This document shows, one piece after another, positions 19,579 through 22,970 of a stretch of 32,451 nucleotides of DNA (position 1 is the stretch's first letter; every line of letters begins with the position of its first letter). A model generated the notes under the pieces. It was not told where the DNA came from. It ran no database searches and saw only the letters and a program-made list of their open reading frames with translations. A program made the position numbers and the translations under genes. This DNA is from Anabaena subtropica FACHB-260 (GTDB lineage: Bacteria; Cyanobacteriota; Cyanobacteriia; Cyanobacteriales; Nostocaceae), in assembly GCF_014697105.1 (NCBI RefSeq), contig NZ_JACJRF010000054.1, positions 1 through 32,451 of the forward strand, written 5' to 3'.

Positions 19579-19605
19579 CTGGATATAATTGCTAATTTCG
19601 TTCTT

Positions 19606-20007
19606 ACAACTCCATCATTCCATTTCTAAACACGAAACTTCAAGTTTTAAACTGGAGCGATCGCCTTTACAACTCCACCATTCCACCTCAAAACACGAAA
19701 CTTCGAGTAAAAAGGGTGAGCGATCGCCTTCACAACCCCACCATTCCACCTCAGAACACAAAACTTCGAGTAAAAAGGGTGAGCGATCGCCTTCACAACC
19801 CCATCATTCCACCCCAGAACACGAAACTTCGAGTAAAAAGGGTGAGCGATCGCCTCCAAAACCCCACGATTTCACCTCATAACAAAAACATCCTCACGTA
19901 AAACAAGAATGTTCTCATTTAGAACAAGAACATTCTCATTTGAAATAGGAATGTTCTTATTTGAAACATGAAACTTTGAGTTCAGAACATGAAACTTTGA
20001 TTTCAAA
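19606..20007. repeat. Compound tandem array: 63-bp units and 21-bp units
   Basis: Four 63-bp units (19606-19668, 19669-19731, 19732-19794, 19795-19857) each contain one GCGATCGC. A partial unit follows, then a series of 21-bp units from 19882 to 20007 built around words such as AGAATGTTCTCATTT and ATGAAACTTTGAGTT. The two series are in phase: the CGAAACTT word of unit 2 and the TGAAACTTT word near 19968 are exactly 273 bp (13 x 21) apart. Frames on both strands stay open over the 63-bp part because the unit is a multiple of three, but no start or ribosome site supports a protein. Apart from about 30 bp on each side, it fills the spacer between the DUF2887 start and the TPR gene stop. Confidence 0.9.
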
Positions 20008-20037: not shown

Positions 20038-21540
20038 TTACTGTTGTGAGTTGAGAAAATCGCGTAAAATTGCTAAATTTTTACGACAAGTAACAGTATT
20101 AGGATGATTCTCTCCTAACCGTCGCTCCAAAATATCTAAAGCTTGGAGATACAAAATTTCAGCTTTGTTGTAACTTCCTTGGGATTTGTAGAGATATGCC
20201 AAATTGTTGATGCTGGTGGCGACTGAGGGGTGATTGTTTCCCAGCAGGTGTTTTCTCAGGTCTAAGGCTTGGAGAAACAAAGGTTCAGCTTCGTCGTAAC
20301 GTCCTTGGGATTCGTAGAGAGATGCCAAGTTGTTGAGGCTGGTGGCGATATCGGGATGATTATCTCCCAGCAGGCGTTTACTCAATTCTAAAGCTTGGAG
20401 AAACAAAGGTTCAGCTTGGTCGTAGCGTCCTTGGGATTTGTAGAGAGATGCCAAGTTGTTGAGGCTGGTGGCGATATCGGGATGATTGTCTCCCAGTAGG
20501 CGTTTACTCAATTCTAAAGCTTGGAGAAACAAAGGTTCAGCTTGGTCGTAGCGTCCTTGGGAATTGTAGAGAGATGCCAAGTTGTTGAGGCTGGTGGCGA
20601 CTGAGGGATGATTGTCTCCCAGCAGGCGTTTACTCAGTTCTAAAGCTTGGAGAAACAAAGGTTCGGCTTGGTCATAGCTTCCTTGGGAATAGTAGAGTCC
20701 AGCCAAGTTATTGAGGCTGGTAGCTAAGTCTTTCTCTAAACCTAACTGTTGTTGTAGTTCCACAGCCTTACTTAAATACTCAATTCCTAATTCCTGCTCT
20801 TGTTTATAATCCTGACATTCACCACGATTGAGTCTTTTTCTATAAATATCCCCTAAGGTAAAGTACAAAGTCGCTAAAGTCGCATCTTTAATTCCTCTGT
20901 GTTCAATATCTTGAATAAACCTTTGCAAATCTTCTATAGGTAATAAATAATCATTATCATCATCAAAGCTTGAAAACTCATTATCACTGAACACAAAACG
21001 AATCGGTTCTAATTCTCTACCAGAAATAGTGTTTTTCCTTCTAGACACAAACCGAAAAACACCATTGCGCCAACTCCAAAAATCAGGCGCTTTCTTCAGC
21101 AAATCACCTAATATTTGATTAGTCACCCAGAGAACTATAGCAAAAGGAAATTCCCTTAACGCCTCCCTCGTCCACTGTAAATAACCGAAAAAAATCTCTT
21201 GTTCTGAACGCTCATTCTCCAGCTTGAGAAAATAAAGCTGTTCTGCTCCAGTCACAGTAATTACTGCTGGATGATGTTGACGCAAATACTCTTCATTTCT
21301 TACCAATTGAGAAATAGCAGCCGTCAAACTCGGTTCACCCCTTGCCAATTTCACGCGATAGCAACGGATTTCTGGCTGTAATTCTGCTTCATACTGACCA
21401 ATAATCTCATCCCGAAAACTAGCATCATCACAAACGGCAATTAGCAAATTTAACCGATGTGCTTTAGCTTCAATAGAAACCATTAAATCATCATAAGCAT
21501 CTCGATTTTCTGCATCTGCTAACAAGTCTTCATTCACCAT
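20038..21540 (-). CDS. TPR protein with N-terminal degenerate NTPase-like domain
   Basis: A 500-residue protein. Residues 25-165 contain LNLLIAVCDDASFRDEIIGQ, HPAVITVTGAEQLYF and FPFAIVLWVTNQILGDLL, then APDFWSWRNGVFRFV. The plan resembles NTPase domains of cyanobacterial STAND proteins, but no GKT/GKS loop is present where Walker A is expected. An irregular TPR (about 222-263) is followed by five 42-residue kinesin-light-chain-type TPRs at 273-482, each with ATSLNNLASLY and QAEPLFLQALEL. The C-terminus is ILRDFLNSQQ. It overlaps the upstream NTPase gene by 11 bp, implying translational coupling and joint function. Likely a binding or signalling partner of that NTPase; the ligand is unknown. 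Confidence 0.8.
   Translation of the reverse strand: MVNEDLLADAENRDAYDDLMVSIEAKAHRLNLLIAVCDDASFRDEIIGQYEAELQPEIRCYRVKLARGEPSLTAAISQLVRNEEYLRQHHPAVITVTGAEQLYFLKLENERSEQEIFFGYLQWTREALREFPFAIVLWVTNQILGDLLKKAPDFWSWRNGVFRFVSRRKNTISGRELEPIRFVFSDNEFSSFDDDNDYLLPIEDLQRFIQDIEHRGIKDATLATLYFTLGDIYRKRLNRGECQDYKQEQELGIEYLSKAVELQQQLGLEKDLATSLNNLAGLYYSQGSYDQAEPLFLQALELSKRLLGDNHPSVATSLNNLASLYNSQGRYDQAEPLFLQALELSKRLLGDNHPDIATSLNNLASLYKSQGRYDQAEPLFLQALELSKRLLGDNHPDIATSLNNLASLYESQGRYDEAEPLFLQALDLRKHLLGNNHPSVATSINNLAYLYKSQGSYNKAEILYLQALDILERRLGENHPNTVTCRKNLAILRDFLNSQQ
20095..20724 (-). repeat. Five 126-bp TPR-coding repeats, nearly identical in the middle
   Basis: Five 126-bp units encode the TPRs at residues 273-482. 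The words TTGTTGAGGCTGGTGGCGA and AAGCTTGGAGAAACAAAGG recur with exact 126-bp spacing. The central units are almost identical even at silent positions, while the outer ones are more divergent. This points to recent duplication or gene conversion. Confidence 0.92.
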
Positions 21541-22822
21541 TAATTAACCCCCTGCGTCTCAGAGTTTCTACAAGAATGGGGTGAATATCATACCAAGTTT
21601 CATCATTACGATATTCCAAAATATACAACCCATGCAGTAATTCTAAAAATTCCTGCTGCTGTACATCTTCAGGCTCGAATTGCTCATAAGTAGTTTTCAA
21701 AATTTCAAAATCGTCCCTTCCCAAACGCAGAGAAAGGTCATTACGAATTTGCTTAATGGCTTCTTCTATAATTTGGTCATTAATAACAATTTTTTCTCCT
21801 GGTTTCTGCCTGATAAGTCGCAAACAAATGCGACAACACACATTACCCAAACGAATCAATTCACGCAGAACTCCACCACTGTAAACAACAATCTTTTCTG
21901 CTGCTGACTTGTCTATTAATTCACTAGAAATGCGTTTTTGTAAGATTTCACATAAAATATTTTTTGCTTCACTTCGAGGCTGGGCATCGGGCAAACGATT
22001 GTTACCCTTAGCAAAAATCTTGATAACAGGCATAACCACAGTTTGGTAATTAGTTTCTGCACCAATAAGCGGCCAGAGAAAAGTGTCACACATTACCGAA
22101 ATAGGGATAGTATAAATAATCCGAAAATTAGGTTGAAACAGAGCTTTAATATTATCTCGATAAATATCATTAACTCTTCCTAAATCTAGTTTATCTAAAT
22201 CATCAATGATGACTATAACTTCTTGTTTAGTAGCAAACTGAATCAATGCAGCAATTTCATTAATTCGGGCAACTAAATCTGATATTTTCCGTTCAAATTC
22301 CTGTGTAATTTCCTCTCTAACTTTTGCATCAGCCTTTAATTGAGCTTTCAGAAAACTGAGCAAATCAAAACCCAACTCCAGCCCAGCCCCTAACTCTACC
22401 TCAGTAGTTCGAGTGCGAGTTGCAAACCACCCATAGAGTTGATCTTTAGTAGTTTTAGGAATTTGTACTTTGCGTGCCTCTGCCTCATACATTAGATTAA
22501 GAGCGATCGCAAAGAGAATATTGACATGATTAACAGCCGACATTTCAATAGTGTCAGCAATAGAAAATAAAACTACAAAAAAGTTATCCTGAACTTGTCT
22601 ACTAAATTCAGCTAATAAAGAAGACTTTCCACACCCTCGATGTCCAGTAAATACAAACTTGCCATCACCATTAGGGCTATCTTCAACTAATTGCCGCAAA
22701 TCTGCTATTAAATCATCACCATAATCTACCCGAAACTGCTCCATTAATTTCTCTCCCATCAATGGAAACAATTCAAGATTGCTATAAGCTTCCTGAAAAG
22801 ATTTTAATAATTCTTTAGACAT
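21530..22822 (-). CDS. P-loop NTPase with winged-helix C-terminus (STAND/Orc-like)
   Basis: A 430-residue ATP-binding protein. Walker A is GHRGCGKSS at 60-68 and Walker B is EVIVIIDDLDKL at 201-212. Between them is an amphipathic helical region with ELGAGLELGFDLLSFLKAQL (about 143-162) that could contact a membrane or partner. After Walker B come NIKALFQPNFRIIYTIPISV (sensor-like strand) and SGGVLRELIRLGN (sensor-2-like arginine). The last 75 residues look like a winged helix (EDVQQQEFLELLHGLYILEY, then YDIHPILVETLRRRG). This plan is that of STAND/KAP/Orc-type switches. The 11-bp overlap with the downstream TPR gene suggests the two form one complex. Cellular role unknown; defence or signalling are possibilities. 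Confidence 0.8.
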   Translation of the reverse strand: MSKELLKSFQEAYSNLELFPLMGEKLMEQFRVDYGDDLIADLRQLVEDSPNGDGKFVFTGHRGCGKSSLLAEFSRQVQDNFFVVLFSIADTIEMSAVNHVNILFAIALNLMYEAEARKVQIPKTTKDQLYGWFATRTRTTEVELGAGLELGFDLLSFLKAQLKADAKVREEITQEFERKISDLVARINEIAALIQFATKQEVIVIIDDLDKLDLGRVNDIYRDNIKALFQPNFRIIYTIPISVMCDTFLWPLIGAETNYQTVVMPVIKIFAKGNNRLPDAQPRSEAKNILCEILQKRISSELIDKSAAEKIVVYSGGVLRELIRLGNVCCRICLRLIRQKPGEKIVINDQIIEEAIKQIRNDLSLRLGRDDFEILKTTYEQFEPEDVQQQEFLELLHGLYILEYRNDETWYDIHPILVETLRRRGLINGE

Positions 22823-22944: not shown

Positions 22945-22970
22945 ACCCCTCTCCGCCGCCGGAAAGGGGT
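22945..22970 (-). terminator. Likely terminator after ndhJ
   Basis: On the minus strand, arms ACCCCT and AGGGGT with an inner TCC/GGA pairing and one mismatch form a GC-rich stem, followed after AATG by a six-T run. It lies about 50 bp beyond the ndhJ stop, in the right place to end the ndhCKJ transcript. Next to it is CTCTGCG-type intergenic repeat sequence. Confidence 0.6.

Follow-up and report, generated by a model that had tools for sequence, protein, structure and literature searches.

An AAA+ ATPase gene of Anabaena subtropica FACHB-260 and its TPR-protein neighbour look like a conserved cyanobacterial ATPase/pseudo-ATPase pair

Proteins of the STAND class carry, in the same chain, a P-loop NTPase core marked by a Walker A motif and a Walker B of the hhhhDDxD type, a winged helix and a repeat sensor. 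In the passages seen of Kaur et al. (2021, PMC8195603), nSTAND2 systems are described as two adjacent STAND genes, one of which is eroded and fused to variable effectors, mostly GT4 or HEPN; an arginine finger is placed in both chains and a mixed hetero-ring is proposed. The domains iSTAND and iSTAND2 are reported, in the parts available of Kaur et al. (2020, PMC7159879; 2021, PMC8195603), from MoxR-vWA ternary systems of cyanobacteria among others. Here we describe two overlapping genes of Anabaena subtropica FACHB-260, located in a stretch of 32,451 nucleotides (contig NZ_JACJRF010000054.1, positions 1 to 32,451 of the forward strand; the window), which is one contig of a 5.8-Mb genome in 104 contigs. 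The first gene encodes a likely AAA+ ATPase (P1), and the second (P2) a protein whose N-terminal domain (N-dom) looks like a maintained pseudo-ATPase and is followed by an array of tetratricopeptide repeats (TPR). Among the openly licensed papers of PubMed Central (PMC), none was recognised as describing the P1/N-dom pair. The features of the two genes are as follows.

22822-21530, minus strand: P1, AAA+/STAND-like ATPase of 430 aa, the first-transcribed gene (open reading frame (ORF), Pfam, AlphaFold2, Foldseek)
22622..22645, minus strand: Walker A GHRGCGKS, P1 residues 60-67 (sequence, alignment)
22193..22213, minus strand: Walker B VIIDDLD, P1 residues 204-210 (sequence, alignment)
21851..21880, minus strand: sensor-2-like motif SGGVLRELIR, P1 residues 315-324 (alignment)
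21554..21718, minus strand: predicted C-terminal winged helix, P1 residues 369-423 (AlphaFold2 secondary structure)
21530-21540, minus strand: overlap of P1 and P2, 11 bp (sequence)
21540-20038, minus strand: P2, N-dom and TPR protein of 500 aa, the second gene (ORF, Pfam TPR)
21046..21513, minus strand: N-dom, apparent pseudo-ATPase domain, P2 residues 10-165 (AlphaFold2, Foldseek, 62-sequence alignment)
20095..20724, minus strand: TPR array of five 42-aa repeats (Pfam TPR_12, E 6.6e-98; repeat analysis)

The pairing of P1 with an N-dom gene exceeds chance. It was examined at the best 80 of 557 loci confirmed from a profile scan with the P1 alignment, a sample with cyanobacterial titles throughout that favours the close clade (loci are cited below by our labels, L followed by a number). 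An N-dom gene lies downstream on the same strand at 77 of the 80 loci, and the three misses are situated 0, 202 and 499 bp from a contig end; the two genes are thus not rarely found together, an outcome that the first-pass annotation had named as refuting its reading. The spacing is within about 430 bp in 76 of the 77 pairs, the remaining one being L162, where P1 is truncated and the gap is 1300 bp. The 11-bp overlap noted in the window was confirmed and is also the commonest of the junctions tabulated (-11 bp in 24 pairs, -4 in seven, 0 in six and -1 in five). In an order-wide search of 195 genomes, an adjacent N-dom was found at 41 of 46 close-clade P1 places (at least 200 bits); three of the five misses are contig ends, one is the upstream copy of a tandem P1 and one a partial P1. 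As the best 80 loci overlap with those from whole genomes (L103 and L184, as well as L139 and L244, are apparently the same contigs), the pair counts, the order-wide counts and the counts of ndhJ neighbours given below are not independent. Both families occur together in 122 of the 195 genomes, P1 only in 10, N-dom only in two and neither in 61 (E 0.001, single-sequence queries; Fisher p 3e-37, uncorrected for phylogeny or genome size). In the genome of the window itself, all three P1 genes are paired. Furthermore, the distances within P1 and within N-dom correlate at 0.94 in 98 close pairs and at 0.93 in 14 remote pairs (112 pairs in total, equal to 106 clusters at 98% P1 identity), a value reached in none of 1000 permutations.

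The sequence of P1 carries Walker A and Walker B, and its AlphaFold2 model the pattern of a winged helix, as the first-pass annotation had read from the letters. Residues G60, G63, G65 and K66 of Walker A are kept in at least 90% of 54 aligned P1 relatives. The pattern GxxxxGK[ST] stands at the aligned place in all 142 relatives with a match longer than 350 residues (128 clusters at 98%), of which a scan with a pattern spanning Walker A contributed 63 and other searches the remaining 79. The Walker B residues D207 and D210 are present in 54 of 54 and 142 of 142 relatives, and at position 208, 121 of the latter have D, 16 have N and five have G. The name sensor 2 for SGGVLRELIR is our assumption by analogy with Orc/Cdc6; G316 and G317 of this motif are invariant in the 54 aligned relatives and R320 is found in at least 90%. 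Invariant residues in the same alignment are D207, D210, R297, G316, G317, L395, L396, Y404, W410 and P415, and conserved arginines are R297, R169 and R320.

The AlphaFold2 model of P1 (predicted local distance difference test (pLDDT) 91.3, predicted template modelling score (pTM) 0.90) consists of an NTPase-type core, a long helical insertion and a helical lid. At its C-terminus, helices 369-381 and 390-397, strands 401-405 and 409-413 and helix 415-423 follow each other in an order that may be read as a winged helix. In a Foldseek search of the PDB, Cdc6/Orc1 was found at the top (E 9.2e-8), followed by more ORC/Cdc6 chains, RdrA, Apaf-1, CED-4 and plant resistosome proteins. Two Pfam models match above their cut-offs, AAA_16 with 35.3 bits (cut-off 32.6) and KAP_NTPase (PF07693) with 32.1 bits (gathering cut-off 20); in KAP NTPases, the NTPase domain is interrupted by membrane segments. 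P1 is therefore likely to be an ORC/Cdc6-STAND-like AAA+ ATPase, which appears catalytically equipped by its sequence and predicted structure. Of the parts that define the STAND class, it has the NTPase core and the winged helix, and the repeat sensor is not in the same chain, as the TPRs are on P2. The best NCBIfam match was ATPase_Sll1717 (NF047389), aligned over the NTPase core, and membership in this family was rejected at 31.5 bits against a cut-off of 75; no paper on Sll1717 was found among the openly licensed PMC papers. Two P1 copies, L031 1501-2787 and L099 3500-4807, contain in-frame stops, and the adjoining N-dom gene is open in both.

For the second protein, an NTPase-like fold without a GKT/GKS loop, followed by TPRs, had been proposed. 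This description is borne out by a five-stranded AAA+-like core in the AlphaFold2 model, by a P-loop count of zero in 149 N-doms and by the TPR_12 match. The model of N-dom has a mean pLDDT of 85.5 and a pTM of 0.73, with ten-residue blocks between 11 and 160 at 88-98 and a poor tail past about residue 170. A first helix is followed by strands 31-36, 59-64, 92-97, 134-139 and 160-163, alternating with helices. The best Foldseek matches in the PDB, six of them at E <=0.001, are AAA+/P-loop NTPases or complexes containing them, so that the refuting outcome named in the first pass, a predicted structure of residues 25-165 unrelated to an NTPase fold, was not obtained. Among them are the Sec18 complex, ORC, MuB, Yta7, ClpC, Orc2, TnsC (TM-score 0.51 by query length) and Avs4 (rank 14), where for large complexes the exact chain was not established. 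Most named matches in a viral structure library are likewise AAA+ or other ATPases (among the 50 matches listed).

By sequence, N-dom stands apart from the described families. Residues 1-225 of P2 gave no Pfam match at E 0.1, and none of 62 family members matched an NTPase model, the 21 Pfam families listed for them being single-member weak matches or TPR matches. No model was found for the region in Pfam and NCBIfam for the members tested, or in PADLOC for the window protein. The motif GxxxxGK[ST] is absent from all 149 N-doms (145 clusters at 98%), which were collected with a P-loop-less profile that distant active homologues could escape. The place of the P-loop is occupied by a conserved CD/CN...R stretch. 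In the 62 aligned N-doms, W138 and W157 are invariant, C37 is conserved in 39 of 42 close and 18 of 20 remote members, R43 in 36 and 16, and both G98 and an E or D at position 100 in 39 and 19; an APDFWSWR motif is present, and the conserved arginines are R125 and R43. Because the sites that would form an active site hold other, conserved residues, N-dom looks like a maintained pseudo-ATPase and not like a decaying gene. In a comparison of the P1 and N-dom profiles with hhalign, a probability of 0.2 was obtained, within the range of 0.1-1.3 of 20 column shuffles, although a distant relationship could lie beyond the depth of these profiles. Since the profiles do not match, it is the predicted fold by itself that would argue for a descent of N-dom from an ATPase.

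The TPR repeats of P2 are presumably of the kinesin-light-chain type. Units 2 and 3 share 98% identity at both the protein and the DNA level, and a simple motif count gave four to eight repeats in the listed relatives at 61-90% P1 identity, with outliers of 1, 2 and 19 below that range of identity. Near-identical units and varying repeat counts fit a fast-changing sensor.

The first-pass annotation had further assumed that one STAND chain was split into two genes. This was not supported: no P1-N-dom fusion was found among the ORFs of the loci up to L233 or the gene calls of L234-L272, and several N-dom proteins carry a STAND NTPase of their own. A 981-aa chain of L076 matches P1 and nSTAND1, with no detectable N-dom in between. 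As fusions were absent from these loci, and as NB-ARC, NACHT or nSTAND1 is found on several N-dom proteins of the wider family that also have the separate ATPase gene, P1 and N-dom are better regarded as an added module than as the halves of a cut chain. The pair looks like a conserved ATPase/pseudo-ATPase module attached to differing sensor or effector chains.

The range of these chains becomes visible in the wider family. In a sample of 386 genomes from the whole phylum, 91 contain N-dom, and these represent 54 of 142 genera. In remote pairs, with 23-27% identity to the P1 of the window, N-dom is mostly part of long chains. Seven remote pairs have N-dom chains with WD40 repeats (L069, L072, L074, L085, L221, L230 and L231). 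nSTAND1 is present on four of them (L072, L085, L221 and L231), and for the other three, WD40-type models take up all of the 25 matches listed. NACHT is found on the remote N-dom chain of L081, and the partner of P1 in L079 is N-dom alone with 144 aa. In the close clade, 73 of 77 full-length partners match TPR_12 (among the 25 commonest models listed, so that rare fusions may be hidden); partners scanned singly revealed NB-ARC in L102, CHAT in L103 and an AAA_22 match in L173.

Some members of the family are unusual in their build. A single chain of 1137 aa at L103 2129-5542 (L184 is apparently the same contig) joins N-dom, TPR and CHAT, and its CHAT part reaches 64 bits with the Csx29 model, below the cut-off of 300. 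L027 has tandem P1-family genes (3-1307 and 1486-2775), followed by a single N-dom gene that ends after 198 aa. Stand-alone N-doms of 144-167 aa were observed at L080 3006-3509 and L232 3760-4263, where no adjoining P1 was found, and at L079 3578-4012 with P1 adjoining. The N-dom-TPR protein encoded by L083 (G023:C150) is 768 aa long, and its genome, although 99% complete, has no P1 match at E 0.001.

A mere co-transcription of the two genes, with N-dom and P1 not belonging to one machine, appears very unlikely. N-dom proteins without a neighbouring P1 do exist, as this explanation would have it, but the pairing persists across a family diverged to about 25% identity and with different attached chains, and the catalytic split between P1 and N-dom is without exception among those examined.

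Slightly in favour over even chances, we regard the pair as a two-protein switch, composed of the AAA+ ATPase P1 and of P2 with its pseudo-ATPase domain and TPR sensor. N-dom would dock on P1 as an inactive subunit, and the nucleotide state of P1 would control, or be controlled by, the chain attached to N-dom. Binding of a ligand by the TPRs could then shift the ATP/ADP state of P1 and its assembly. No recognisable effector domain was found in the window pair, and its output may run via the winged helix of P1 or a recruited partner. N-dom most likely serves as an adaptor between a single ATPase family and many sensors and effectors, because relatives carry it on CHAT, NB-ARC, NACHT and nSTAND1-WD40 chains, with an ATPase gene of this kind alongside.

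Set against the described systems, the pair resembles nSTAND2, as known from the parts seen of Kaur et al. (2021, PMC8195603), in having two adjacent genes for STAND-type NTPases, one active and one inactive, with variable modules on the latter; this is an analogy of layout only. It differs from the nSTAND2 of these same parts, with which it was compared by description only, in its modules (TPR, CHAT, NB-ARC, NACHT and nSTAND1-WD40) and in the dissimilar sequences of P1 and N-dom. By this analogy nSTAND2 would be the closest described kind. That the pair simply is such an already described operon, with an active STAND gene and an inactive one fused to variable effectors, is nevertheless unlikely. 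An intact NTPase gene and an eroded one fused to variable modules is the same layout in words, and nSTAND2 is said, in the parts seen of PMC8195603, to be near DAP3, to which P1 has a weak similarity (Pfam E 0.013, below the cut-off). However, the GT4 and HEPN effectors were not seen among the matches listed (25 models) for the proteins examined. In addition, the parts seen of PMC8195603 call nSTAND2 mobile and put both its chains in one family, whereas part of the present copies share one place and P1 and N-dom have no detectable sequence similarity. No match named nSTAND2 was obtained in Pfam at E 1, and it is uncertain whether Pfam holds such a model. At rank 40 of the P1 Foldseek search stands a chain from an intermediate of the yeast mitochondrial small subunit; we take this chain to be the DAP3 homologue.

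As in the iSTAND and iSTAND2 systems of the passages seen, an inactive STAND domain stands beside a separate AAA+ ATPase, and N-dom shows the iSTAND trait of a predicted STAND-like fold without Walker motifs, the fold being AAA+-like with the STAND subtype not separable. In contrast to these systems, no MoxR or vWA gene was recognised beside the window pair by sequence reading, without a family search, and P1 is ORC/STAND-like and not MoxR. The iSTAND proteins BrxB and BrxF of BREX, in the portion seen of PMC12839542, share with N-dom the compact P-loop fold without Walker motifs and are proposed sensors; they differ from it in their partner and in the TPR array that follows N-dom, and no BREX gene was recognised in the window by reading. 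The parts of STAND and NLR proteins (Avs, NACHT, NB-ARC, Apaf-1, CED-4), namely NTPase, winged helix and repeat sensor, are all found in the pair, with the fold of P1 matching Apaf-1 and CED-4 and that of N-dom matching Avs4. In the pair, however, these parts are distributed over two chains and an extra inactive NTPase-like domain is present.

Biological conflict is suggested as the likeliest role of the pair by the CHAT and STAND fusions, by a fusion in a VMAP system and by a plasmid neighbourhood. The VMAP ternary system is located on plasmid p057_J of Nostoc sp. C057 (L219 5066-10239), where genes for VMAP (Pfam VMAP-C, 1.1e-33) and MoxR are followed by a third protein, annotated as SAV_2336 N-terminal related, whose residues 543-972 are a P1-family ATPase. 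This protein sits in the place of the vWA-effector protein, and no vWA Pfam match was seen in it. On a conjugative Acaryochloris plasmid, the pair lies beside genes annotated as TIR, CHAT and NB-ARC. In total, nine of 72,556 plasmid records match P1, of which four were inspected, and one matches the N-dom of the window. A weak pair with a partial P1, an N-dom at E 7.8e-5 and a 4-bp overlap is found on an Acidobacteriota plasmid (L220).

The more specific explanation of anti-phage abortive infection, in which the TPRs recognise a phage protein and P1 and N-dom assemble and trigger a shutdown of the cell, is possible but doubtful. The N-dom fusions to CHAT and STAND modules, the P1-family ATPase fused in the VMAP system, the copy on the conjugative plasmid and the near-identical TPR units with their differing repeat numbers speak for it. 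On the other hand, the window pair has no recognisable effector, and P1 was unmatched in 50,697 phage records. In PADLOC, P1 has partial weak matches only and P2 TPR-region matches only, neither of them to a full-length model. The chromosomal flanks match 52 PADLOC models at E 1e-10, against 66 for the controls (130 flank proteins of 19 genomes; 133 control proteins of these genomes, encoded at a distance of about 100-150 kb; G414 excluded from both, as the control stretch chosen for it did not exist). The association with defence islands raised in the first-pass annotation therefore failed to appear as an excess of known defence genes in the flanks. Among the 25 commonest models listed, of the 52 and 66, those of the flanks include PD-T4-6, mads_6 and MkoA, matched by six proteins, and those of the controls include mads_2/mads_3 (two proteins) and methyltransferase, Druantia/DISARM-type and PDC-S03 (one protein each). 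A protein-kinase motif occurs in six flank proteins and in no control; four of the six are one orthologous gene, since they are 80-87% identical to each other, and the six are presumably those behind the PD-T4-6, mads_6 and MkoA signal.

Upstream of the pair and on the same strand, genes like ndhC, ndhK and ndhJ were named by reading their sequences, no family search being run. An ndhJ homologue is located upstream on the same strand, at 0.2-5.2 kb, in 11 of 100 loci, at least one of which is counted twice; a share of the copies thus keeps a stable position behind ndhCKJ-like genes in some Nostocaceae. One further feature lies between the ndhJ-like gene and P1.

22945..22970, minus strand: terminator-like stem-loop of 11 pairs, 7 of them G-C, with a T run

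Given this hairpin, the pair may have its own promoter, where the support for the stem-loop is weak as three terminator-like sites were found in the window against 3.3 expected by chance. Immediately 5' of the P2 ATG, the sequence AGGGGG resembles a Shine-Dalgarno site. Just 3' of P2, tandem DNA repeats with units of 63, 42 and 21 bp were observed at 19606-20005, and a 97-aa ORF within them (19589-19882) is probably not a gene. The relatives of the window found by sequence belong to Nostoc, Trichormus, Cylindrospermum and other cyanobacteria.

The stable chromosomal place in some Nostocaceae would also suit a DNA-binding regulator, in which the ORC/Cdc6-like ATPase binds DNA by its winged helix and the TPR protein is the ligand sensor; STAND regulators of the MalT type are the model for this. 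The best fold matches of P1 to Orc1/Cdc6 and the winged-helix pattern at its C-terminus point the same way. Yet a winged helix is standard also in STAND proteins that do not act on DNA, and the CHAT and STAND fusions point to an output at the level of proteins, so that such a regulator appears rather improbable.

The view of the pair as a conserved switch with a possible role in conflict has to be weighed against a number of observations. The TM-scores of N-dom are modest, with 0.28-0.51 by query length among the 50 matches listed, its profile does not match that of P1, the P-loop-less collection could have missed active homologues, and the Walker A count of P1 is partly due to selection. Two of the 195 genomes have N-dom only, two of the five N-dom proteins of the window's own genome have no adjoining P1, and the same holds for L077, L078, L080, L082, L083, L086 and L087; 38 full-length N-doms stood as unpaired after de-duplication, many by losing the entry of their P1, and only the named ones are counted as orphans. 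Shared species history contributes to the distance correlation. No N-dom was found at the VMAP locus L219, there is no sign of an enrichment of known defence genes in the flanks of the 19 chromosomal pairs, and the stable place after the ndhCKJ-like genes is a further point of this kind.

Although the N-dom family is widespread, no existing model for that region is matched by the members tested. If N-dom docks the ATPase to many receptor chains, this would explain why an ATPase gene precedes a set of cyanobacterial TPR, WD40 and STAND proteins, and the pair would offer a simple two-protein system in which the control of a live NTPase by a dead one could be studied. Tentatively, N-dom and P1 might form a general plug-in of cyanobacterial immunity-like proteins, in which one ATPase family licenses TPR, WD40, NACHT, NB-ARC and CHAT receptors via a pseudo-ATPase docking domain, a bacterial counterpart of helper/sensor NLR pairs where the partner of the helper is a dead NTPase.

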